This document shows, piece after piece, positions 2,730-28,591 of a DNA stretch of 28,591 bases (its first letter is position 1; each line of letters opens with the position of its first letter). Source of the stretch: a virus. The notes under the pieces are model-generated. The model worked only from the letters and a program-made list of their open reading frames with translations, was not told the DNA's origin and did no database searches. The translations under genes and the position numbers were made by a program. The stretch lies in the IMG/VR virus record IMGVR_UViG_3300031951_000932, positions 1-28,591 of that record; one strand, given 5' to 3'.

Positions 2730-3701
2730 ATGGCACTAGGATGGAACACACTGCGCAGCCTGCCCCGGCTACGCACTTACAAGGATGCCTACGAGCGTGA
2801 GGTCAACACCAAGCCCATCAAGGGCGACGACCGAAACCCCAAGCCCATCGCGCAGCGCAGTATGAAGTGGCGGCATATCCGCAAAGCGGACGATGCTACT
2901 ATCAGCATCCACGAGACCTTGCAGGGCGGCTACCTGCCGATTTTAACTTTCAACCCTGACAACACGGTGCTCGTGCGTCCGTCTGGCTTTTGGAACAAGG
3001 CGACAAGCCACGACATGATCCGGGAAATCCTTGGTATCAGGATATGGACCGAGGCGGGTGACTCATGGGTGCAGTGTCGAGGCGGGACTTACCGACTGCG
3101 TCCGCAGCCGAAGGCTCAGTGGAACCGGGACAAGAACGAGTACGACGACCCCGAGATTACGTCCGAGCACGACAACCTGTTCATCTGGGTGCCGAACGAG
3201 ACGATGCGCTACCCGTCTGGTGAGTGGGTGTTCGTCAACCCTGAGGATCGGGTAACTCACGTTATCGACCGCAAGGGTGCGCGAGAAGTGCGCGAGCGCT
3301 ACGCTGACTACCTGCGCTACGCGTCGGCCATGTTCAAGCTGCGTCGGGACAACCGGCCTGAGTTCGATGAGTATGTGGAAGCGTTCCAGATGGATAAGAC
3401 CGTATTTACCGCTCACGGCACCTATAAGCCTTGGTGGCTGCTGCCTAGCAACCCGCTGGAGCGAGGGTTCAGCCATGAGGACGCAGCTAACCTGTGCGCG
3501 CTGATGCAGTCCGAGGTGCCTGAATGTCAGTACAAGGCCTACCTGTGGCTGACCGCGCGCAACTGGGGAGGCCTCAACGACGTGCTCAAGGCCATCGACC
3601 ACTGCCTCCTCATGCACCACCACGCCAAGATGCTGAAGGTCAAGCGGCACGAGCTGGGGGCCAAGGCCCTCGACCGCTACAAGTGGGCGATCCCGGCGTA
3701 A
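2730..3701 (+). CDS. Hypothetical protein, 323 aa
   Basis: The largest product of the first transcription unit, started at ATG 2730 behind AAGGAGCAAAGACC. It is a soluble mixed alpha/beta protein with many Trp and Tyr residues. Features include a basic N-terminal region (KPIAQRSMKWRHIRK), a beta-rich middle (GGYLPILTFNPDNTVLVRP) and a helical C-terminus with a His-rich patch (HCLLMHHHAKMLKVKRHE). I see no catalytic signature and do not recognise a family. The His patch could bind metal, but there is no conserved metalloenzyme spacing. It is followed by the promoter at 3712, so it ends its unit. Confidence 0.8.
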   Translation: MALGWNTLRSLPRLRTYKDAYEREVNTKPIKGDDRNPKPIAQRSMKWRHIRKADDATISIHETLQGGYLPILTFNPDNTVLVRPSGFWNKATSHDMIREILGIRIWTEAGDSWVQCRGGTYRLRPQPKAQWNRDKNEYDDPEITSEHDNLFIWVPNETMRYPSGEWVFVNPEDRVTHVIDRKGAREVRERYADYLRYASAMFKLRRDNRPEFDEYVEAFQMDKTVFTAHGTYKPWWLLPSNPLERGFSHEDAANLCALMQSEVPECQYKAYLWLTARNWGGLNDVLKAIDHCLLMHHHAKMLKVKRHELGAKALDRYKWAIPA

Positions 3702-3711
3702 GCCAGATCGC

Positions 3712-3740
3712 TTGACATAGCGCTATTAATGTGCTACAGT
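3712..3740 (+). promoter_or_regulatory. Sigma70-type promoter of transcription unit 2
   Basis: TTGACA at 3712-3717 and TACAGT at 3735-3740 with a 17-nt spacer, and TGC before the -10 box. It is nearly a copy of the promoter at 677-705. The leader of about 85 nt contains a small hairpin (GCGGC/GCCGC at 3759-3772) and the half-palindrome TAACTCAAGTTA at 3797-3808 just before the ribosome-binding site of the AAA+ ATPase. Confidence 0.8.
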
Positions 3741-3830: not shown

Positions 3831-4901
3831 ATGAGCACCATTAACTTTGGCACCACTGTGTCCCTCGACGAAGCCGCGACCTTGGTTCGCACTTGCCAGC
3901 ACAATCGGTTCTTCCTGCGCGGTGAGCCGGGTATCGGCAAGTCCAGCCTGATGGGTGCGTTCGAGCGTCACTTCGGCGGTGCCTACGCCTATGCCTACTT
4001 CGACTGTGCGCAGAAGGACCTTGGCGATATCGCCATGCCGAGCATCAACCGTGAGGAGCGGGTCACCGAGTACTTCCCCAATGCCGTGCTGCAGCTGCAG
4101 ACTGGTAAGCCCGTAATCATCATGCTCGATGAGTTCACCAAGGCACCGCAGCCCGTGCAGAACATGCTGCATCCGTTGCTTGAGGCGCGCAACCCGCGTC
4201 TGGGTGACATCGCTCTGCCCGAGGGGTCCATCGTGTTCCTGACAGGCAACATGGCATCGGACGGTGTGGGCGATAACATCAAGGCTCACACGCTCAACCG
4301 CGTAACTACGGTTACGGTGCGCAAGCCGAGCGCCGACGAGTGGCTGGCGTGGGCGCTCAATAACGGCGTTGACCCTGTGGTCATGGCGTGGGTGGATCGC
4401 TTCCCGCATGTGATGGACAGCTACATGGACGGGGACCAGAGCAGCAACCCGTACATCTACAACCCCAAGAAGCAGCAAGGTTCGTTCGTTAGCCCTCGCT
4501 CACTGCAGCTGGTTAGCAACGTGCTCGAGCAGCGTGAGCACAACACGGCCAACGCTACGCTGGCTGCGATGATCGGTACCATCGGTGAGTCCGGTGCACG
4601 TGATCTGAATGCCTTCGTCGAGTATCAGGACCAGCTGCCTACGTGGGAAGCTGTCATCACTAACCCCAAGACGGCCAAGCTGCCTGACTCACCGGGTGCC
4701 TGTGCGGTTATGGTGTTCGGTGGTGTGACGCGTGTCGATGCTACTTCTATCACGCCGTTCATGGACTACATCGAGCGCATGGAGCCCGAGTGGCAGGCTG
4801 CCTTCGCTATCAACCTGTCCAAGAACCCCATCAAGCAGGGCGTGGCGTTCAAGTCGGTCAAGTTCCGTGACTGGTGCTACGCCAACGAGGACATTCTGTG
4901 A
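3831..4901 (+). CDS. MoxR-type AAA+ ATPase, 356 aa
   Basis: An AAA+ ATPase with Walker A GEPGIGKS (K37), Walker B IIMLDEF (D100, E101) and a sensor-1 Asn in FLTGN (N140). The length and the motif order fit the MoxR group, whose members remodel or load partner proteins and are usually encoded beside a VWA-domain protein, as here. GTAGGAGC-like sequence (TAGGAGCAA, 3815) precedes ATG 3831. The C-terminal part (about 210-356) is probably the helical lid plus a family-specific extension. It is the first gene after the promoter at 3712, and the metallopeptidase/VWA gene lies two genes downstream. The substrate cannot be read from sequence. Confidence 0.85.
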   Translation: MSTINFGTTVSLDEAATLVRTCQHNRFFLRGEPGIGKSSLMGAFERHFGGAYAYAYFDCAQKDLGDIAMPSINREERVTEYFPNAVLQLQTGKPVIIMLDEFTKAPQPVQNMLHPLLEARNPRLGDIALPEGSIVFLTGNMASDGVGDNIKAHTLNRVTTVTVRKPSADEWLAWALNNGVDPVVMAWVDRFPHVMDSYMDGDQSSNPYIYNPKKQQGSFVSPRSLQLVSNVLEQREHNTANATLAAMIGTIGESGARDLNAFVEYQDQLPTWEAVITNPKTAKLPDSPGACAVMVFGGVTRVDATSITPFMDYIERMEPEWQAAFAINLSKNPIKQGVAFKSVKFRDWCYANEDIL

Positions 4902-5071
4902 GCGGGTTGAGACTAGAACGCATCCAACCGTGGGGAGACATGTGGCGCATCCGGTATACCGACTTGCAAGGCTCGACGCGCTACGCCTTCAAAACCAAGC
5001 GAGACCACCCCGACGAGCTGTCGGTGCTCAAGTGGTGGCTTAAATATACAGGAGCAAACCAATGGCAATAA
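4898..5071 (+). CDS. Small protein between ATPase and VWA genes, 57 aa
   Basis: It starts at GTG 4898, whose last bases overlap the ATPase stop (GTGA), and it ends inside the next gene, so it is tightly coupled on both sides. The protein is beta-rich and basic (GDMWRIRYTDLQGSTRYAF) followed by a helix (ELSVLKWWLKY). No family is recognised. Because it lies between the AAA+ ATPase and the VWA partner, it may be an adaptor or regulator of that pair, but this rests on position alone. Confidence 0.65.
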   Translation: MSGLRLERIQPWGDMWRIRYTDLQGSTRYAFKTKRDHPDELSVLKWWLKYTGANQWQ

Positions 5072-6258
5072 CTGCTGAGCGCAGGCTCAAGAAAACTGTG
5101 ATCGAGTTGCTGCGTGATCCTACCTTCGCCGACATGGCGGGTATCTTCATGCTGGGCACCAAGTCGGTTGTCGAGGATATACCCACTGCTGCGACTGACG
5201 GGCGTGATGAGTGGTATGGCCGTGCCTTCGCCGATACGCTGGCTGATAAGGAGCTAGCCTTCGTCGTCGTGCACGAGTCCTACCATAAGATGCTACGCCA
5301 CCTCACTACGTGGGAGAAGCTGCACAAGGAGGACCCACAGCTGGCTAACATGGCGTGCGACTACGTCATCAACCTAGCCATCACCAAGCGCGACCCAACC
5401 GGTGTCATGGTCAAGATGCCGCAGAAGAACGGTAAGCCCATGGGCTTGCTGGATCAGCGGTTCGACAACATGAACGCCAAGCAGGTCTTCGACATCCTTA
5501 AGCAGGAGAAGAAGGACGGCAAGGGACCGGGCGGCGAGGGCGGCGATGGTGCTGGCTTAGACGAGCATGACTGGGCCGGTGCCAAGAAGCTGAGCAAGGA
5601 GGAGCAGGACGCGCTGGCCAAGGAGGTCGATCAGGCTATCCGGCAGGGACAGATCGCCGCGTCCAAGATGCACGGTGACAAGGCTGGCAACATGGCACGT
5701 GAACTGGCTGAGTTGCTCGAGCCCAAGGTAGACTGGCGCGAACTGCTGCGTGAGTTTGTGTCGGCTATCTGTGCTGGGCGTGACCAGTCCTCGTGGCGCA
5801 GACCCAACCGGCGCTTCCTCTCGGCAGATATCTACATGCCTAGCCTAGTAAGCGAACGCGTCGGGCATCTGGTTATCGGCATCGACACGTCGGGCTCCAT
5901 CGGTGGGCCGGAGCTGTCTAGGTTCCTAACCGAGGTTAAGGATATCGCCGAGCGCGTGAACCCTGACAAGGTGGACCTGATCTACTGGGACGCATCGGTG
6001 GCTGGGCACGAGGAGTATGACTCGTTCACCCTGCCTACCCTGATCGACAGCACCAAACCCAAGGGTGGTGGAGGCACGGACCCAACCTGTGTCGAGCGCT
6101 ACCTCGCCGAGAAGAAGATCACGCCCGAGTGCATCATCATGCTGACCGATGGTTATGTCGGCCAGTGGGGTAACTGGGACGTGCCGATCATGTGGTGCAT
6201 CTGTGGCGGCAACACCGTCACCGCACCGGTCGGCAAGACCATCCACATCAAGGACTAA
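5062..6258 (+). CDS. Putative metallopeptidase with VWA-like domain, 398 aa
   Basis: Two parts are visible. The N-terminal part carries VVVHESYHKML, an HExxH zinc-binding motif (H71, E72, H75), as in the DUF2201 N-terminal putative metallopeptidase domain. After a Gly- and Lys-rich linker (about 150-180), a VWA-like domain follows with a complete MIDAS: DTSGS at D275, the GGTDP Thr at T339 and LTDG at D363. VWA proteins next to MoxR ATPases are thought to bridge the ATPase to its substrate. AGGAGCAAAC precedes ATG 5062. Whether the peptidase site is active is unknown, and the third zinc ligand could not be fixed. Confidence 0.8.
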   Translation: MAITAERRLKKTVIELLRDPTFADMAGIFMLGTKSVVEDIPTAATDGRDEWYGRAFADTLADKELAFVVVHESYHKMLRHLTTWEKLHKEDPQLANMACDYVINLAITKRDPTGVMVKMPQKNGKPMGLLDQRFDNMNAKQVFDILKQEKKDGKGPGGEGGDGAGLDEHDWAGAKKLSKEEQDALAKEVDQAIRQGQIAASKMHGDKAGNMARELAELLEPKVDWRELLREFVSAICAGRDQSSWRRPNRRFLSADIYMPSLVSERVGHLVIGIDTSGSIGGPELSRFLTEVKDIAERVNPDKVDLIYWDASVAGHEEYDSFTLPTLIDSTKPKGGGGTDPTCVERYLAEKKITPECIIMLTDGYVGQWGNWDVPIMWCICGGNTVTAPVGKTIHIKD

Positions 6259-6282
6259 CAACCAAGAAGAAGGAGCAAACCA

Positions 6283-7134
6283 ATGAGCATTTCCAACTCA
6301 GCAATGCTGGTCGAGATGAATATCAGCGTATGGACCGGGCAGAAGGTAGACCGAGGAGCTACTATCAGAGTCACCGATGATGCGCGGGCATCGTCCGATG
6401 CGGGTCTGTTCCGCAAGAACCTCATGGCGGGCACCACCCTGCGCAAGGAGATCGCAGACTACGCGGCGCTGTGCCGCACGTGGCATAACGGGCGCACCCT
6501 GCCGTGGTCCGACAAGGGTACGAGGTTGCTGCCGACCTCGATGTTCTTTGACTATAAGAAGGAGGTCAACGCGCGGCGTGACTACTTTAATAGCAAGGTG
6601 GCGCAGTTCCTCATGGAGTATCCCACCCTCATGCTGGCTGCCGAGCGTAGCCTTGGCGATCTGTTCAACCCGGCTGACTACCCGACCGTCGAGGAGGTGC
6701 AGTCCAAGTTCGGCTTCAGGCTTGTGTTCTCGCCGGTCGCCGAGGCGGGTGACTTCCGTATTGACGTAGGTAACTCCGAGTTAGCCGAGCTACGTGAGCA
6801 GTACGAGTCGGCTTACGAGAGCCGAGTGCAGGAGGCGATGCAGACTGCATGGGACAAGCTGCACGACGTGCTGACTACCATGAGTGAGAAGCTGACCGAG
6901 CCCGAGGGTGAGAAGCCCAAGCTGTTCCACGGTACGTTCGTGTCCAACATCACCGACATGTGCAGTCTGCTTACGCACCTGAACATCGCCAACGACCCCA
7001 AGCTGGAGATGGCACGGCGCGAGCTTGAGCGGGCTATTGCCAACGTAGACATCACCGATATCCGTGAGGACCCGGGCGTGCGTATTGACCTCAAGGCGCA
7101 GGTCGATGCGGTGCTGGGCAAGTATGACTGGTGA
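6283..7134 (+). CDS. DUF3150-like protein, 283 aa
   Basis: The protein begins with SAMLVEMNISVWTGQKVDR, the kind of N-terminus seen in DUF3150 proteins, and it sits directly after a MoxR ATPase and a VWA protein as DUF3150 genes often do. The rest is helical with long Glu/Arg/Leu-rich stretches, including a probable coiled coil around residues 165-205. No catalytic residues are visible. The start is ATG 6283 behind AAGGAGCAAACC. It may be the substrate or scaffold of the ATPase-VWA pair. The family assignment comes from memory and context and is moderate. Confidence 0.65.
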   Translation: MSISNSAMLVEMNISVWTGQKVDRGATIRVTDDARASSDAGLFRKNLMAGTTLRKEIADYAALCRTWHNGRTLPWSDKGTRLLPTSMFFDYKKEVNARRDYFNSKVAQFLMEYPTLMLAAERSLGDLFNPADYPTVEEVQSKFGFRLVFSPVAEAGDFRIDVGNSELAELREQYESAYESRVQEAMQTAWDKLHDVLTTMSEKLTEPEGEKPKLFHGTFVSNITDMCSLLTHLNIANDPKLEMARRELERAIANVDITDIREDPGVRIDLKAQVDAVLGKYDW

Positions 7135-7324
7135 GCGGCTATACGTGGTGGAGTGGGAGGACCGCCAACCCGTGCGTGTGATCGAGTGGAACGACTGGTT
7201 ACGCGTGCCACCACCCGAACGACCGTGGGATACCACCATGATCAAAGCCAAAGACGAGCTCGATGCCTTCGCTAGAGCTGCACGAGGCGAGGACTACTTC
7301 GCCGACTATAAAGGAGCAAACTGA
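7124..7324 (+). CDS. Hypothetical protein, 66 aa
   Basis: ATG 7124 lies inside the end of the DUF3150-like gene (11-nt overlap), and its stop shares a base with the next start. The protein begins MTGERLYVVEWEDRQPVRVI, a beta-rich start, then a Trp- and Pro-rich stretch (WNDWLRVPPPERPWDT) and a helical acidic end. No family recognised. Alternative upstream GTG and ATG codons have poorer spacing to a ribosome-binding site. Confidence 0.6.
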   Translation: MTGERLYVVEWEDRQPVRVIEWNDWLRVPPPERPWDTTMIKAKDELDAFARAARGEDYFADYKGAN

Positions 7325-8184
7325 TGCCTAACATTCTACTGCCGATGGACATGCACAACGTCTTCCGTGAGTGTCCCTACGAGAACCGTGAGTACATGCG
7401 CAACACCAACGCCCGCGTGGAGTCCTTCATGCGGCCATTGATCGACGAGCTGGCGCGCAAACGTCCGACGTGGACTTTCGTATCCACCAACCATTCCACA
7501 AACTCGGACGGCGATATCTACTACTACTACACTAAGTTCTCCGTGCGTGTGGGCGACGAAGAGATTGGCTGGATCGACAAGGACAGAAGCTGGCGCGACG
7601 GGTCGCAATATTATGAGTACGACTGCCGTGCGCTGCGTAAGGCTCGTGAGCGTGGCCACTGCAACAGGACCAAGGACCTCAAGAAAGCAGCCAAGGTCAT
7701 CACTGGGTCGTTCTGCGAACTCAGCTACGGTGAGCATATGGTTGCTACGCAGAGTGCCATCAGGTCAACGGCGCATCGGATCATGAGCGGTCGCAAATAC
7801 GACTACGGTCAGTCCGAAACCAAGGCGCGGTCAAGCATCATGGCTTTCCTTCGCGCAAACTGGGACGCCTTCCTAACTACGGTTAGCGACCCGGAGCTGG
7901 CTATGCTGCTAGACAAGTATGACACTGCGCGTGACGCCGAGGCTGTGGCTACCAACATTGCGAAGCACGGTGCCTACGTGAAGCTGATGGACGGCAAGTA
8001 TGTGGTGAACCGTGTAGGGGGCGATGATGTGCACGTCTACACGAGCGATAACCTGCCGGATGACCTGCGTGGTCCTATCGGTGCGCTCAAGATGGTCAAT
8101 GACAACACCCTGATTCCCGAGATCGGTGTGCGGTCCGAGGACGGGATACTGTACGTTATCCCTACGGTGAAGCACGATGAGTAA
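7324..8184 (+). CDS. Hypothetical protein, 286 aa
   Basis: It starts at ATG 7324 with AAGGAGCAAAC directly upstream (7311). It is a soluble alpha/beta protein with an unusual Tyr run (DGDIYYYYTKF, about residues 61-71) and a Lys/Arg-rich middle (RKARERGHCNRTKDLKKAAK). The last third is beta-rich (VHVYTSDNLPDDLRG). No enzymatic signature is visible and no family is recognised. It belongs to the same transcription unit as the MoxR/VWA genes, so a role with that complex is possible. Confidence 0.75.
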   Translation: MPNILLPMDMHNVFRECPYENREYMRNTNARVESFMRPLIDELARKRPTWTFVSTNHSTNSDGDIYYYYTKFSVRVGDEEIGWIDKDRSWRDGSQYYEYDCRALRKARERGHCNRTKDLKKAAKVITGSFCELSYGEHMVATQSAIRSTAHRIMSGRKYDYGQSETKARSSIMAFLRANWDAFLTTVSDPELAMLLDKYDTARDAEAVATNIAKHGAYVKLMDGKYVVNRVGGDDVHVYTSDNLPDDLRGPIGALKMVNDNTLIPEIGVRSEDGILYVIPTVKHDE

Positions 8185-21572: not shown

Positions 21573-21613
21573 TACCCCCACCGGTACCCTCCCCGGTGGG
21601 GGTATTTTTATTT
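21573..21613 (+). terminator. Strong Rho-independent terminator of the rightward genes
   Basis: A 12-bp perfect stem (TACCCCCACCGG with CCGGTGGGGGTA) closes an 8-nt loop and is followed by TTTTTATTT. It ends the rightward replication genes and lies between convergent transcription units. The T-run overlaps the stop codon of the leftward gene (21608-21610). The minus-strand reading has no T-run, so it may be one-sided. Confidence 0.85.
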
Positions 21614-24600
21614 GGGCCTGAAGGCCTCTGCCGACTTGAGCTCTTGCTGCGGCGACTTCTTACTAATCAGCATACCCTCCATGGTGCGCGCTTCGCGCTC
21701 AGTGCGGCCCTTGAGCGACCGCTCAATCGTATCCATGGTTATGAGGAAGTCAGGGTCCGGGTAAGTGCGGTTGAACGGCACGACGGTCTCGGTCCAGAAC
21801 TTCTTGAAGTCTGCTTGCGTAGCAATCTCTCCAGAGTCGAGCTTGCGCTCCAACTCGTCAAGGATATCGACCCGCTCACCCTTGATCCGGTTCTCGTTCT
21901 TCTTGGCAGTGATGTAGTAGTCCTGCCAGCGGGCAAGCCGCGCAGAGCGCGCCCCAAGGATCGAGCGGGCGACGTCGCCCCCGCTAATGTCTTCCTTCGG
22001 AATGATGGTGTCACCCTTGCGGGTTTTAACACCTTCGACCTCACTGTAGTAGGCATTAACCGGCGCACGGAAGAACGCGGGCAGCAGCTTCTTGAGGGCT
22101 GCGCTGGTGTTCTCGTTCTCGATGTCTTCCCACGCCTTGAGCATCTGCGAGACCATGCTGAACCCGGCGACGTTAGCGATAATGGCACTGATTGCCGTGC
22201 TCTCAAGGCTGTCACCTGCGATAGGCTCGCGGTACCACATGTTCACGAGGTCGAGCGACAGGGTGCTGGATAGCTCAGTATCCGTCATGGCCCCCGGCAC
22301 ACCACCAATCACGACGTCCGCAAAGTCTACGTCGCCCTTCTCCGACGTGCCCAGATGCTCCATGATCCAACGCCGGAACATGATGTCGGCATCGTAGGCA
22401 GTGCGCGGGTCAATCCCCATCAGCTTACGCACGTCGTCATCGTCTTCTTGATCGAAACCTTCGGCGAGGGCCTGCGCCAAGATGGTGTAGAAGGGCATCG
22501 CGGTGAGACCGCCAAGCAGCCCCGCCATCATGATGACGCCTGAGAACTCCTTGAGCGCACCCCCGATGTAGGCAGTATCTGCCTCGGTCATCTTGCCCCG
22601 ACCCGTAGCCTGACGCGCTGCGCCGCGAAGCGGGGCACCGATGATGTCGCGGAACGCGCCCACCATGAACTTGGTCTGGAGGATCGGGTGCATCTTGAAC
22701 AGGAAGAAGGCACGAGTGACTTCGCCCTTGGCGATACGCGGGCGTTCCCAGTCAGCGAAGTTACCGATGGTGTCGTCCACGATGCGCAGAGCCTTCTGCA
22801 GAGCCCGCTCGCGGCGCTCCTCCAGCGGCATGCTGGGGTTCTCCTTGGCCTGCTTCTTCATCTCCAGCTCAAAGGCCATGTAGTAAGTGGCCTGCCGCGA
22901 GATGTTCTCCGTACCCGTGAAGAGGAAGCTCATCACCTTACCAACGTTCGCCTGCAGGTCTTGCAGCTTACCAGTGATGTTCCCCTTAGCTGTCAGCGGA
23001 TGAGCGCGCTCGTTATGCACCATGGTGTCGGCGGTGGTCATCAGGATACCACGCTCGGTGCCAGCCTTAAGCGCCCACTGCAGGTCATCACTGTTCTTCA
23101 CGAAGTTGGACCCGTTGACGTTAGGCATGACGGCATCGAGGTAGTCCCCAAAACGCATATTAGTGCGTTCGAGCTTCACCCGGCCAAGACTGTCCCACAT
23201 CTTCATGTACTTGAGCCACATCGCAGTGCCTTCGGCGTAGCCATACTCGCGCCAGAAGCGCGGCACGACGCGCACGGGGATGTTGGCGAAGTTGGTCAAC
23301 GCAGTCTTGGCTGACGTCAGGAAGTAGTAGAACGAGAAGCGGTTGAGGGCGTTTACGAACGTACGCATCGCACCGAGAGGTGGCGGGTTCAGTTCCTCCT
23401 CGGCACGCAGCTCCAACTCGCGGGCAAAGTCACCCAGCATGAGCTTCTCACTAACTGGGCGCTCTGGATCATCAATGGTGTCCTTGATCGCTTTGGTCGC
23501 TGTCCGGACGCGGCCAGCATAGGCCAGCTTGGTCAGCTCGTTTGCATTCGTGACGAGCTGGTTCTGGAAGTTCGCAAGCGTATCCGTCGAGAAACCTGCA
23601 ATCTGCTTGGCATGCATGAAGTGGCGACGCGCTGACCGTTCGGGGGTAGTCATGAGCCACGTCTGGTAGATTTCATCCATCAGCTGACGCATGTCGAGGT
23701 CACCGGACTTATTGTAGTCGTCGCGTGCCTTACCCACGATGTCGAAGACGCGCTGCATCAAGGCGTCGCTCTCGCGCAGGGTGTTCTGCAGCTCACCGAT
23801 GTCGTTACCAGCCTCAAAGACTGCGCTGCTCTCGGCGTCTTCCTTAAGCTGCTTAGCCAGCTTGCGGCGACCCGCTGCCAACTCGCGGGCGCTCTCAAAG
23901 ACGTAGAACTGTTCCTCGCGGCCCTTCGACAGGTCCTCCTTGACGCGCAGCCAATACTGGCCATCGCGCAGCATCGGGAAGTACTCCTTGTCGAATAGGT
24001 CGGAGTCGAGGTCCCAGAACAGATCACCGGCCTTCTGCCGCTCGGTAGGCGACTGGAGCTCACGCATCATTCGGGCACGGATGTCGCGGATACGGGTAGC
24101 CTGCTCCTTGCCCAGACCGCGCTCGATACGCTCGTCAAGCAGCGCCTGCCGCGCCTCAAGGATTTTCTTGTGGTACTCGCGCTCCGCCTCGTAAAGTTCG
24201 AGGCCACCCTTCTGCTTAGCCAGCTCTGCCTTAGCGGCATAGCTGTCGCGGATGCGCTGCGTCACCGCAGCCAGCTGCTTGACCTTGAGCAGCACCTTGT
24301 CCGCATCGACCGCGATCTTGGATAGCTCGTTGGCCTTAACACGCAGTGGAGTGGATAGAGTGACCTTGTCCTTAAGCACCGAGGTGCCGTCCGACTGCTT
24401 AGCAGCCTGCTCCTTGACCGCGTCGAGCAGCTTGCGCGTCTCTGCCTTGTTGTTTGAGTTCGATAGCAGTTCGCCCTCAATGGCCTTGACCAGCCGGTGC
24501 TTGGTTAGCGCTTCGGCCTGCGTATCGAACGCGAGGAAGTCGATCTCGTTAATACGGTTGGTGAACTGAGCGCGAGCAAGAGCCTGAGTCCCGTATTTGC

Positions 24601-27600
24601 GCACGAAGTCGGTCATGTCGCGGACGGTGTCATCACCCGCAGCCAATAGGTTAACCCGCAGACCGTTCATCTTGCGCACGGTGTCAACGAGAACTTCTGC
24701 AACTTCGTATACAACCGGCGACTTACGCTGGAGCCAGCCCGTGATACCTGAGGTCGGCATCGACATGAGCGCCTTCTGACGCATCGGAGACGAGGTGTCC
24801 TCCGCGAAAGCGATTGCGTCGCGCAGCTTCGAAGTGTTCTCGGTAGCTTCCTCGATACCATCCACCATGCCGTAAACGCTCATGGTGTCTTCCACGCGGC
24901 GGCGACCCGCGCTCAGCCCGGCGGCTGCATCGACGACCTTCTTGTTCTTCTTGCGGGAGTACTTGGCGGTGAGTTCGACGTCTTCGTCTTGGAATACGAC
25001 GTAGTTGTAGCCCGGCGCAGCCGCAATCATACCCCGTGAGTTGCCGTCGAGGTACTTGTTGCCCCGAACGCCAGCAGCAAGCAGTGCAAGCGATGCCTGC
25101 TTGGCATCACCCATAAACTCTTCGGTGAGCAGCTGGTACATCTGACCACCACTGAGGTCGAGTCGAAGCGCGCGAGGCATGGTCATCAGGTCCAAGGCTT
25201 TTTGGAACGTAGACCGGGGGGTGAAGCCCAACGACTTCATGGCCTCAATTACCTTCGGCGACTGCTTGCTTAGGGGTTTATCCCACAGCAACCAAGAGTC
25301 ATCGTCGGGCTTCAACTCTACATTATAGAGCTTACCTGAACTCTTACGCGTGACCTTCAGATTACCGAGTTTATTGAGGATTTCGAGTTCCGTGATCGTG
25401 CTGCGCAGTACCGATGTTAGCTCCTTCATGCGGCGTGCATCACGCTTACGCTCGGCCTCGTTCAGTTCATCTTGGAATGAGTAGGCGGCATCGAGCAGGT
25501 CCTTAGCCACGTGCTCAAGCTCAGTCGGCTCACTCCCCGAGAACTGGGAATTGATTGTAACGGCTACATCAATCTTCTGCATTAGCCCCGGCACATCAAG
25601 GGGGTCAGCGCCCACTGCTGCAGCTGCAGCCTTAACCTGATCGCGCAGCGACTTCCCGTCAGCAACGAGCTCCGTATCGCTCAGTCGATCACGGTAGAAG
25701 CGTTCAGCAATCTGCTTGGTGTCGGTGAAGTAGAGGCCCCAGCCAAAGATTTGTGCGCCTTCGCCAGTACCGATCTTCTCGGTGGTGAACTTATCGAAGT
25801 CGTGCGGTGAGCCGTGCCACGCAGTTACGTAGCGCAGGCCCTTGACGATGGTGCTCTCGGTATCACCCTTGACGACCTTGTCGTGGGCCATGGACAGGAT
25901 GGCAGCAACATCGCCATCGCTGATCTTGAGGTTGATCCCCATGCGCCGTGCGAAGTTACGCACGATAGCAGCCACCTTCTGGAACAAGGTGCGGTCGAGC
26001 TGCCCCTTCTCGGAGCGCTCGGCGAGGACTTCCTCGATTGCACGTGCCAGCGGGTTCTTGTCGTTCTTATAGGCGTCAGGGTTCTCAGCGCGCCACTTGT
26101 CGGTGTCGGCCTTAAGTTGCGCATTGCCCCGGTACATGGTAACCAGAGCGTTATCGAGATTGTTACGGAAGAGCTTTTCAAGTCCCGTATGGCCCAGCGC
26201 TTCGTGGAACAGGACCGCCTTGGCGTCCTCCATGCTGAGCAGGTTGTCAGCGAGCAGGTAGATGGTGCCATCGGGAGCAACGAGGCCGTTAGCTCCCTCT
26301 GCTTTGTCGCGCTTGATCGCCCGGCGCAGCTTGGCGTCAGGGATGTCATCGACAGATGCAACGACCTTGACCGGGTTAGTGCTCTTCCACTGCGACGTGA
26401 TCTTATCGACCATCGCCTGCACGGCAGCGACGTCTACGACCTTAGGCGGCCCACCCGGCTGCTTCTCCGCGCCCTTACGGTACTTTTGTACCTTCGACTC
26501 CTTAAGGTCGATCTTGGCTTCGCGGGCTTCCTTCTTGGCTTCACGCTGCGTTGCCGACACGGGAGACCCGACCTGCGCCTTTTCGCTTAGCTCCTTCGGG
26601 AGAAAGAACTCGTTAGCCGGATCGCGCGAGTATTGCTTAGGATTAATCTCCCCTTCCGCCTCAATATTAGAAACGCGATACTTCTCAAGATCACGAGTCG
26701 GAACATCAACATAGACGACCTTCGCGCCTTCGCCTGCGTCTTTTAGGTACCAGTCGATTTGGGCTTTGCTATCAGCACGGGTAAACCAGCGCCCAGCAGC
26801 GGTACCGGCGGGAGACGCTTTGTACGCCTCCTCAAGCCACGGAGACATAACCCCAGTACGTGCTTGAACACGCGCGAGACGAGTGGTTCCAGACAGTACA
26901 TCCTGCGCTTCTTTGAGGCGTGTCTTAGCGCCGACCTTCTCGTCCTGCCGCATCTCGACCATCGACTTGAGCTTGGCCCGTGCCGGGTTGAGGAGGCTGT
27001 TCTTGACGGCGGCAGCGAGGCGGTCATTGGCCTCCACGGCGGCAGCGGTAGCTGCGTCCCGCTCTTCTGCGGTAGCGTTGTTGGCCGCGCTGGCGGCGTC
27101 GATGGCTTCCTTCTCCAACTTGGCGATAGCGTCGGGGATCATCCGCTCGCCGTTGGGCGACGGACGGTAAGCATTCGGGCGTTGCAGGCGCTGGAGGAGC
27201 TCTGACCGCTGCAGGTTATCAATCAGACCCGCTTCACGTGCAGCATCCACCTCAGCAGTGAAGTCCTGCACCATGCGCGTGGCAACCGTAGGGTACTTCT
27301 GCTCGCCCGACTCGCGCTCTTCGATCTCCTCAATCCCAGCCGGAGCAGGCGGGGTATAGGGAGTGAGCTCTTCCATGCGCTCGTACACGGCGTCGGAGAA
27401 GTCCTGCCGTGTCTTTGCCTGCAGCACCAGCTCAGGCTTCTTGCCCAGCTGGGTCTCAGCTACGAGCTTATACGGCGCGTTGGTGTCTTCCGGCTCGTAG
27501 AGCACCTTGTAGACGGCGTTCTCCGGAGCCTTGGCGCGCAGGATGGACTGGATGAAGTCCAGATGCCGCTGCCGCTGCCCTGCTTCACGCTCGTTAATAG

Positions 27601-28591
27601 CCAGCGCACGCTCGGTACCCGCCTCAAACTCAGCGGCAGCCTGTTCCTGACGGGCAAGCCGTTCTTCCTCGGAGGCAAACCGCAGCTCGTTATACTTGTC
27701 ACGCTTCAGCGCTTCACCCGGCGCAGCCTGCACAGGGAGGTCAAAGCCAAGGGATGCGGTCTGGGTGTCCTTGGGACGGCGACCACGCGAGTACTTGGGT
27801 TGGTAACCTACATCCTCTCCACGAGCTACGGCTCGCAGGGTCTCAAGATCGCCGCCACGATTGACGTATTCGTCGAGTGCATCCTGATCGTCGAGGATAG
27901 CATTAGCACGCTCAGGGGTAAGATCGCCCCCGGTGGGGTACGTCGGCGGATTAGCGAAAGCGTCGGAAGCTGAGGGGGTTGGGGGAGCTTTGCTCGCAGC
28001 AAGCTCATTAATAGTAGCCGCCTCCTTGGCGAAAAACTGCTGCACAATAGGGCCAAGGTCGCTAACAGCAACCGTATCCAACTGCCCATTAGCGCTGAGG
28101 TCAAGCATCTTTGACGCTATCGTATTAACCAATGGCGCTGGTGCTTTGACCCCCCGAGCACTTAGGGAGCCATACATATTAAGTGCGCTCTTGATCGAGG
28201 CGTCTTCGAGCTCTGCCTCGTTCGGACGTACGCCGCCCAACTGCTCCTTAATCTGTGCCTGCGGCGTGATAGTTTTTAGCGGAGGGATGACACTCGGTGC
28301 AGGGGGCGTGCTCGGTGCGGTGCCAGCCTCTGCCGCGCGCAGGCGGTCCATAGCGGCCTGCTCTTCAACATCCACCGGGGGCGGCGCACCAATGTCGGGC
28401 TCGACGATGGGCTCAACACCAGCAGTGCGTTCTTCACGGGCCTTCTGCTTCGCTTCGGCTTCTTCCGCAGCGGCTCGTGCAGCGGCTTCCTTCTGGAACT
28501 GTGCGTTGCGGACGATGGTACGCGCGGTCTCTTCGTCGAACCCTAGGTCCGTGAAGCGCTTGGTTAGCTCGTTAGCAACCTCTTCCTCTGC
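21608..28591 (-). CDS. Giant polyvalent protein with zincin-like and ADP-ribosyltransferase-like segments, partial
   Basis: An open frame of at least 2327 codons ends at TAA 21608-21610. Its 5' end lies beyond the right edge. GTG 28375 is only internal because the frame stays open to 28591. Part 1 is Ala/Pro/Glu-rich and helical. A zincin-like segment has LFHEALGHTG (26189-26206) and AIEEVLAE as possible third ligand. An ART-PolyVal-like ADP-ribosyltransferase segment (about 25835-24970) has AWHGSPHDFDKF, GWGLYFTD and YNYVVFQDEDVEL. The last 1100 residues are helical with hydrophobic stretches (about 22455-22550 and 22140-22205). Such proteins are thought to be packaged and injected. The lack of any stop argues against a pseudogene. 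Confidence 0.75.
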   Translation of the reverse strand, partial: AEEEVANELTKRFTDLGFDEETARTIVRNAQFQKEAAARAAAEEAEAKQKAREERTAGVEPIVEPDIGAPPPVDVEEQAAMDRLRAAEAGTAPSTPPAPSVIPPLKTITPQAQIKEQLGGVRPNEAELEDASIKSALNMYGSLSARGVKAPAPLVNTIASKMLDLSANGQLDTVAVSDLGPIVQQFFAKEAATINELAASKAPPTPSASDAFANPPTYPTGGDLTPERANAILDDQDALDEYVNRGGDLETLRAVARGEDVGYQPKYSRGRRPKDTQTASLGFDLPVQAAPGEALKRDKYNELRFASEEERLARQEQAAAEFEAGTERALAINEREAGQRQRHLDFIQSILRAKAPENAVYKVLYEPEDTNAPYKLVAETQLGKKPELVLQAKTRQDFSDAVYERMEELTPYTPPAPAGIEEIEERESGEQKYPTVATRMVQDFTAEVDAAREAGLIDNLQRSELLQRLQRPNAYRPSPNGERMIPDAIAKLEKEAIDAASAANNATAEERDAATAAAVEANDRLAAAVKNSLLNPARAKLKSMVEMRQDEKVGAKTRLKEAQDVLSGTTRLARVQARTGVMSPWLEEAYKASPAGTAAGRWFTRADSKAQIDWYLKDAGEGAKVVYVDVPTRDLEKYRVSNIEAEGEINPKQYSRDPANEFFLPKELSEKAQVGSPVSATQREAKKEAREAKIDLKESKVQKYRKGAEKQPGGPPKVVDVAAVQAMVDKITSQWKSTNPVKVVASVDDIPDAKLRRAIKRDKAEGANGLVAPDGTIYLLADNLLSMEDAKAVLFHEALGHTGLEKLFRNNLDNALVTMYRGNAQLKADTDKWRAENPDAYKNDKNPLARAIEEVLAERSEKGQLDRTLFQKVAAIVRNFARRMGINLKISDGDVAAILSMAHDKVVKGDTESTIVKGLRYVTAWHGSPHDFDKFTTEKIGTGEGAQIFGWGLYFTDTKQIAERFYRDRLSDTELVADGKSLRDQVKAAAAAVGADPLDVPGLMQKIDVAVTINSQFSGSEPTELEHVAKDLLDAAYSFQDELNEAERKRDARRMKELTSVLRSTITELEILNKLGNLKVTRKSSGKLYNVELKPDDDSWLLWDKPLSKQSPKVIEAMKSLGFTPRSTFQKALDLMTMPRALRLDLSGGQMYQLLTEEFMGDAKQASLALLAAGVRGNKYLDGNSRGMIAAAPGYNYVVFQDEDVELTAKYSRKKNKKVVDAAAGLSAGRRRVEDTMSVYGMVDGIEEATENTSKLRDAIAFAEDTSSPMRQKALMSMPTSGITGWLQRKSPVVYEVAEVLVDTVRKMNGLRVNLLAAGDDTVRDMTDFVRKYGTQALARAQFTNRINEIDFLAFDTQAEALTKHRLVKAIEGELLSNSNNKAETRKLLDAVKEQAAKQSDGTSVLKDKVTLSTPLRVKANELSKIAVDADKVLLKVKQLAAVTQRIRDSYAAKAELAKQKGGLELYEAEREYHKKILEARQALLDERIERGLGKEQATRIRDIRARMMRELQSPTERQKAGDLFWDLDSDLFDKEYFPMLRDGQYWLRVKEDLSKGREEQFYVFESARELAAGRRKLAKQLKEDAESSAVFEAGNDIGELQNTLRESDALMQRVFDIVGKARDDYNKSGDLDMRQLMDEIYQTWLMTTPERSARRHFMHAKQIAGFSTDTLANFQNQLVTNANELTKLAYAGRVRTATKAIKDTIDDPERPVSEKLMLGDFARELELRAEEELNPPPLGAMRTFVNALNRFSFYYFLTSAKTALTNFANIPVRVVPRFWREYGYAEGTAMWLKYMKMWDSLGRVKLERTNMRFGDYLDAVMPNVNGSNFVKNSDDLQWALKAGTERGILMTTADTMVHNERAHPLTAKGNITGKLQDLQANVGKVMSFLFTGTENISRQATYYMAFELEMKKQAKENPSMPLEERRERALQKALRIVDDTIGNFADWERPRIAKGEVTRAFFLFKMHPILQTKFMVGAFRDIIGAPLRGAARQATGRGKMTEADTAYIGGALKEFSGVIMMAGLLGGLTAMPFYTILAQALAEGFDQEDDDDVRKLMGIDPRTAYDADIMFRRWIMEHLGTSEKGDVDFADVVIGGVPGAMTDTELSSTLSLDLVNMWYREPIAGDSLESTAISAIIANVAGFSMVSQMLKAWEDIENENTSAALKKLLPAFFRAPVNAYYSEVEGVKTRKGDTIIPKEDISGGDVARSILGARSARLARWQDYYITAKKNENRIKGERVDILDELERKLDSGEIATQADFKKFWTETVVPFNRTYPDPDFLITMDTIERSLKGRTEREARTMEGMLISKKSPQQELKSAEAFRPK

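Follow-up and report, generated by a model that had tools for sequence, protein, structure and literature searches.

A MoxR ATPase and metallopeptidase-VWA pair with a DUF3150-like third partner in phages and plasmids: a candidate protein remodelling and cleavage machine

The virus record IMGVR_UViG_3300031951_000932 (28,591 bases, analysed in full and referred to here as the window) carries at positions 3831-8184 a gene cassette surrounded by nuclease, polymerase and helicase genes. The cassette encodes a MoxR-type AAA+ ATPase, a DUF2201 protein combining a putative metallopeptidase with a von Willebrand factor A (VWA) domain, and a DUF3150-like protein. The ATPase/peptidase-VWA pair at its core is already known as gp24/gp25 of phage N4 and from jumbo phages. 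We find that this pair is regularly accompanied by the DUF3150-like gene as a third partner, and that the resulting triad also occurs on plasmids; both findings are new here. With a probability of about 0.48, we propose that the cassette is an ATP-driven machine for protein remodelling and cleavage that is made early and acts on a replication, maintenance or host complex. Judged from the proteins' sequences, the biochemical class of this machine is well supported; its target is a guess, the best candidate being a replication, maintenance or host complex by which mobile elements are held back, and not a virion part.

The ATPase matches Pfam AAA_5 (9.8e-8, 32.5 bits against a cut-off of 22) and PHROG 1297 (2.7e-46). 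Its Walker A (GEPGIGKS), Walker B (IIMLDE), sensor 1 (N140) and arginine finger (R157) are intact and conserved, features by which the protein can be assigned to the MoxR-type AAA+ ATPases. When its profile is compared with the PDB, the AAA domains of midasin score best, with NorQ lower down (5.4e-4).

The partner protein carries both members of the PF13203/PF09967 domain pair above their cut-offs, namely DUF2201_N, described as a 'putative metallopeptidase' (9.5e-29, 101.3 bits against 23.2), and the VWA-like DUF2201 (8.9e-17, 61.8 bits against 26.4), which places it in the DUF2201 family. The N-terminal domain contains the motifs HExxHxxxxH and NxAxDxxxN. In an alignment of 84 phage and plasmid homologues, the HExxH residues H71, E72 and H75 as well as A98, D100 and N104 are unchanged in all 84 and N96 changes a single time; the MIDAS residues D275, S277, S279, T339 and D363 (D-x-S-x-S...T...D) are equally without exception. 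A set of 17 diverse members, including N4, phage G, jumbo phage and plasmid proteins, likewise keeps H71, E72, H75, H80 and D100 invariant. In the AlphaFold model (mean predicted local distance difference test score, pLDDT, 74.8; mostly 79-94 in the metallopeptidase part, with a low of 64), HExxH lies within helix 62-77 and D100 within helix 92-110, and either H80 or D100 is a candidate for the third metal ligand. Compared with the PDB, the profile of this domain yields weak matches to MJ1213 (E 0.018), which we take to be the minigluzincin selecase, to an M48 peptidase (E 0.6) and to one unrelated entry. A fold search with the VWA half retrieves VWA folds, among them the midasin MIDAS domain and NorD. 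The Pfam domains and invariant residues thus bear out the original prediction of a MoxR-VWA pair with an added metallopeptidase motif.

The DUF2201 protein also matches PHROG 1314 (7.3e-92), which is labelled 'HNH endonuclease'. This identity is not borne out by the Pfam domain content: no HNH domain is found by Pfam in the window protein, and DUF2201_N and DUF2201 together span nearly its whole length. The same label, apparently transferred via PHROG 1314, stands on N4 gp25, on the homologues at loci L044, L149, L150 and L151 and on many phage records, and the DUF3150-like protein of phage Tunturi_3 bears it as well. In GenBank it looks like a PHROG error, and a widespread annotation is thereby corrected.

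The third partner belongs to a family found on about 500 IMG/VR stretches, and synteny was counted in the best 80 of these roughly 500 loci, which come from related viruses, so that the counts are not independent. Where at least 3.5 kb of upstream DNA is available, MoxR and VWA genes are each present in 50 of 51 loci. The order is mostly MoxR-VWA-DUF3150, with VWA-MoxR-DUF3150 in 10 loci and MoxR-DUF3150-VWA in 5; because the order varies while the set is kept, we argue for a joint function of the three proteins.

Its relation to DUF3150 proper is a distant one. Neither the window protein nor 20 relatives reach the PF11348 (DUF3150) cut-off of 24.9 bits, and PF11348 was not found in the window and related contigs. 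Aligned with hhalign, the DUF3150-like family and PF11348 share 227 columns (P 1.6e-4, probability 50.7%). A plasmid homologue of the window protein (28.6% identity, E 5e-26) itself reaches PF11348 at E 1.1e-4 and 22.1 bits, slightly below the cut-off, and thereby bridges the two. Canonical DUF3150 genes have comparable neighbours: in five Burkholderiales genomes a separate HExxH-VWA gene adjoins in all five and a Walker-A ATPase lies nearby in four. The resulting MoxR-DUF3150-CobT-like operon resembles the window in that ATPase, DUF3150 and HExxH-VWA genes adjoin. It differs from the window in the canonical Pfam form of its DUF3150 and in its VWA protein, which in the one case typed is of the CobT rather than the DUF2201 kind (CobT match 5.5e-13). 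By sequence, we therefore regard the third partner as a distant relative of DUF3150 and not as a member of the family; the predicted DUF3150-like partner stands as far as distant homology and synteny go, and a Pfam match of the window protein is missing. None of the papers searched uses the word DUF3150.

A tblastn search places the DUF3150-like protein on 44 plasmids as well, mostly Burkholderiales megaplasmids, of which 16 are typed as conjugative. Relatives of MoxR and DUF2201 lie within 5 kb of the DUF3150-like gene on 40 of the 44, or 41 if one triad spanning the record start is included. The triads on large plasmids of Burkholderiales and Rhodovastum thus consist of the same three homologous proteins, close together. 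Those examined differ from the window in their order, MoxR-DUF3150-VWA (annotated as ATP-binding protein, DUF3150 and VWA-like), in having no counterpart of the 286-residue protein that ends the window cassette (u286), and, in several, in a PRTRC and conjugation setting: PRTRC and/or type IV secretion genes adjoin the triads in the annotated examples, where one side holds PRTRC genes and, in three, the opposite side holds type IV secretion genes. In five of five cases a protein of about 510 residues lies directly upstream of the plasmid triad (L137 6042-7601, L140 5234-6754, L144 5645-7165, L145 6064-7599, L146 6087-7604); the L137 copy has no Pfam or NCBIfam match.

The plasmid triads examined have no virion genes around them, and their existence speaks more strongly than any other evidence against a role confined to the virion. 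The original prediction had named a virion protein among the possible targets, an option that is weakened because the triad occurs on conjugative plasmids. It remains the core of an unlikely alternative, in which the MoxR-VWA pair would act as a chaperone-protease that builds a tail or head part while the zincin trims a structural protein. Such a role is proposed, as virion assembly and processing, in a jumbo-phage survey (PMC7824862), for the MoxR and peptidase-vWA pair of group 2.2 phages; there, domain fusion and partner ATPase are like those of the window, and the passage on the pair mentions no DUF3150 partner. It is also inferred for Acidianus two-tailed virus (ATV), whose p618 binds the VWA protein p892 and tail proteins (PMC4124505). 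ATV shares with the window a virus-encoded MoxR-VWA pair, but it is an archaeal virus, its p618 is in the virion and, according to the jumbo-phage survey (PMC7824862), its pair has no peptidase domain. In phage RPP1 virion genes lie close to the gp24/gp25 homologues, yet none of the 13 virion proteins of RPP1/RLP1 is such a homologue, and in the window the cassette has nuclease, polymerase and helicase genes around it and a host-type promoter in front.

The distribution of the pair in other phages points the same way. DUF2201 relatives are encoded by 627 phage records. In N4, gp24 and gp25 are middle genes and belong to the 14-gene core of N4-like phages, where they have no assigned function (PMC4193335). 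N4 resembles the window in that a DUF2201 HExxH-VWA protein with the same catalytic residues comes after a MoxR-type ATPase, in an early/middle region; it differs in that its VWA protein is only 27% identical and that neither a DUF3150-like gene nor u286 is present in the N4 stretch examined. In EcP1, D498, pYD6-A and Rhizobium phage RHph_TM27A, helicase and/or DNA polymerase genes follow shortly after the pair or its VWA gene. We favour a non-virion target because the triad is kept on conjugative plasmids and the pair stands beside replication genes in several phage groups; since plasmids have no virion, an early step in which a replication, maintenance or host complex is remodelled and cleaved is the likelier shared function.

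The window itself has no close DNA relatives among phage records in a DNA similarity search, and Rfam and tRNA searches give no match. The six open reading frames (ORFs) originally described are all present (Table 1). They had been taken as one six-protein unit with its own promoter; a single gene unit with a conserved sigma-70-type promoter is indeed seen, but it comes down to three conserved proteins and, probably, u286. The promoter lies about 90-120 bases ahead of the MoxR start; the 20 kb scanned contain just one other site that matches at 10/12. Among 59 distinct regions upstream of MoxR in relatives, 23 contain a match of at least 10/12, always with a 17-base spacer, compared with a mean of 1.1 and a maximum of 5 in 100 shuffles. 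Because the number of matches over the whole window equals the shuffle mean, our claim is based on this conservation and not on the single match. The promoter is of the host type, consistent with early expression. A second strong match with the same TG extension (TTGACA-17-TACATT) is located at 677-705.

Table 1. Features of the cassette and its upstream neighbourhood in the window.
Feature	Position	Strand	Basis or remark
Fast-evolving protein, 323 aa, possible associate of the cassette	2730..3701	+	Loci counts, L046 profile match
Sigma-70-type promoter	3712..3740	+	TTGACA-17-TACAGT, TG ahead of -10
MoxR-type AAA+ ATPase, 356 aa	3831..4901	+	Pfam, PHROG, invariant residues
57-aa ORF, PDEL motif, optional	4898..5071	+	GTG start overlaps MoxR stop
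DUF2201 protein, 398 aa, predicted metallopeptidase and MIDAS-VWA	5062..6258	+	Pfam, invariant residues, model, fold search
DUF3150-like protein, 283 aa, third partner	6283..7134	+	Plasmid homologue bridge, hhalign, synteny
66-aa ORF, DELDA motif, optional	7124..7324	+	Comparison with relatives
u286, fast-evolving 286-aa orphan	7324..8184	+	Located between triad and Hjc/polymerase genes

By analogy with NorQ-NorD and RavA-ViaA, the machine may work as follows. Early in infection, it would be made from the host-type promoter; MoxR would form a hexamer, the VWA protein would dock on its pore, and ATP hydrolysis would pull or twist the bound partner. In NorQ-NorD, a finger of the VWA partner enters the pore of the MoxR hexamer and ATP hydrolysis twists the VWA linker (PMC13036017). 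Correspondingly, MoxR may act on the DUF2201 protein so as to present a target to the fused zincin domain, which, going by its HExxH motif, would cut it. The DUF3150-like protein, and perhaps u286 too, could serve as the adaptor that chooses the target.

The likeness to NorQ-NorD extends to a MoxR AAA+ ATPase with a VWA partner and to the NorQ profile similarity mentioned above; on the other hand, descriptions of NorD include no metallopeptidase domain, and the target there is nitric oxide reductase. Known MoxR-VWA pairs insert metal or reactivate enzymes, and the bacterial DUF3150-linked partner matches CobT. The window pair could accordingly activate a phage metalloenzyme, for example of nucleotide metabolism, with HExxH serving to hold the metal and not to cut, in the manner of NorQD, CbbQO or CobST. 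We consider this improbable, as no common metalloenzyme neighbour is seen across phages and plasmids and the catalytic E72 is invariant, as expected of a peptidase.

Several points weigh against the proposed early machine with a shared target. The literature yielded no experiment with a DUF2201 or DUF3150 protein, and the neighbouring replication genes may reflect shared early timing alone. On a tree of 28 VWA proteins, the clade of the window protein groups with Schitoviridae and one Acinetobacter plasmid (support 96/95), and the plasmid triads fall elsewhere. The DUF3150 association needs three changes on this tree, with a single clade not rejected (p 0.075). The triad as one ancestral block is hence not recovered, though without clear rejection, which points either to repeated gain or loss of the DUF3150 partnership or to a tree without the power to tell; the targets of phage and plasmid pairs may also differ. 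The Acinetobacter member is L154, a 75-kb record of Acinetobacter baumannii plasmid pRBH2-3 with a MoxR-VWA pair, possibly a phage-plasmid.

A further point of this kind concerns u286, which could belong to the Hjc/polymerase side. In all 74 loci with at least 1.5 kb of downstream DNA it is located between the triad and the Hjc/polymerase genes, and where VWA is the last gene of the triad u286 follows it, so that it is perhaps equally tied to that side. Its membership of the cassette unit is likely but unproven. It is only 21-29% identical to counterparts in relatives whose MoxR, VWA and DUF3150-like proteins show 47-79%, and its alignment varies too much to be used for scanning contigs. Pfam, NCBIfam and PHROG give nothing credible; a nicotinate phosphoribosyltransferase match in NCBIfam (0.0012, 17.6 bits against a cut-off of 503) was discarded. 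The u286 model (pLDDT 86.5) finds no match in the PDB, the best hit (E 0.05, TM score 0.13) being meaningless, and in BFVD it matches solely uncharacterized phage proteins. No u286 was found by tblastn in cultured phages.

The rapid change of u286, which evolves far faster than its neighbours, bears on a rather unlikely reading in which a host defence or nucleoid complex is taken apart or cut by the machine and u286 is its fast-evolving target adaptor. In keeping with such counter-defence or host takeover, the machine is common to conjugative plasmids and lytic phages, the pair of EcP1 has a Lar-like restriction alleviation gene beside it, and a protein similar to DarB is encoded by the window phage as well. 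Rapid evolution can, however, arise for many reasons; no direct link to any defence system is seen, u286 is absent from the plasmid stretches examined and from the vicinity of the N4 pair, and core status in Schitoviridae suggests a housekeeping role. Also unlikely is a unified model for lytic phages and conjugative plasmids alike, in which MoxR, zincin-VWA and DUF3150 unfold and cut a host or replication complex that blocks the establishment of mobile DNA, a lineage-specific adaptor such as u286 sets the target, and N4 gp24/gp25 represent the two-gene form.

The general MoxR-VWA theme had also suggested a link to ternary conflict systems, that is, phage-borne anti-phage defence or superinfection exclusion. 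This link is not supported: PADLOC returns chance-level matches only, none below E 0.0097 and none to a known anti-phage defence family, and neither VMAP, iSTAND and double FtsH nor any other defining third component is identified, Pfam finding no VMAP, iSTAND, FtsH or beta-propeller domain in the cassette proteins. Together with the core position among replication genes, this makes such a role highly improbable.

The two small ORFs, originally counted as members of the unit, come and go among relatives and have counterparts in part of the clade only. In L004 and L022 the gap between MoxR and VWA is 15 bp, and in many relatives the DUF3150-like gene and u286 are 14 bp apart. By eye, both ORFs (4898-5071 and 7124-7324) seem to belong to one small family marked by a (P)DELxAy motif, whose copies are retained beside larger genes in some cases only and are also seen at L003 7828-8001 and L029 6397-6579. 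In a sister group (L009, L010, L013, L014, L016, L017, L023), a protein of about 55 residues resembling sigma-70 region 4 replaces the 57-aa ORF between MoxR and VWA (L013 1709-1876: Sigma70_r4, 1.7e-5); it is possibly a promoter or sigma decoy. Upstream, the 323-aa protein is found in 23 of 39 loci with enough upstream DNA and in the L046 cluster (profile match 2.6e-11). Farther away, a protein of 2255 residues is encoded on the minus strand at 21608-28375. It ends in a PLxRFG/tail-700 domain (4.8e-61), has a DarB-like antirestriction match (1.2e-34) and a weak ADP-ribosyltransferase PolyVal match, and is a polyvalent protein that probably enters the host together with the ejected DNA.

Because N4 gp24 and gp25 are core genes of N4-like phages, the finding of their relatives with a constant third partner on plasmids moves the search for their target away from virion assembly. 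The occurrence on plasmids also makes the target of the pair testable in laboratory phage and plasmids.

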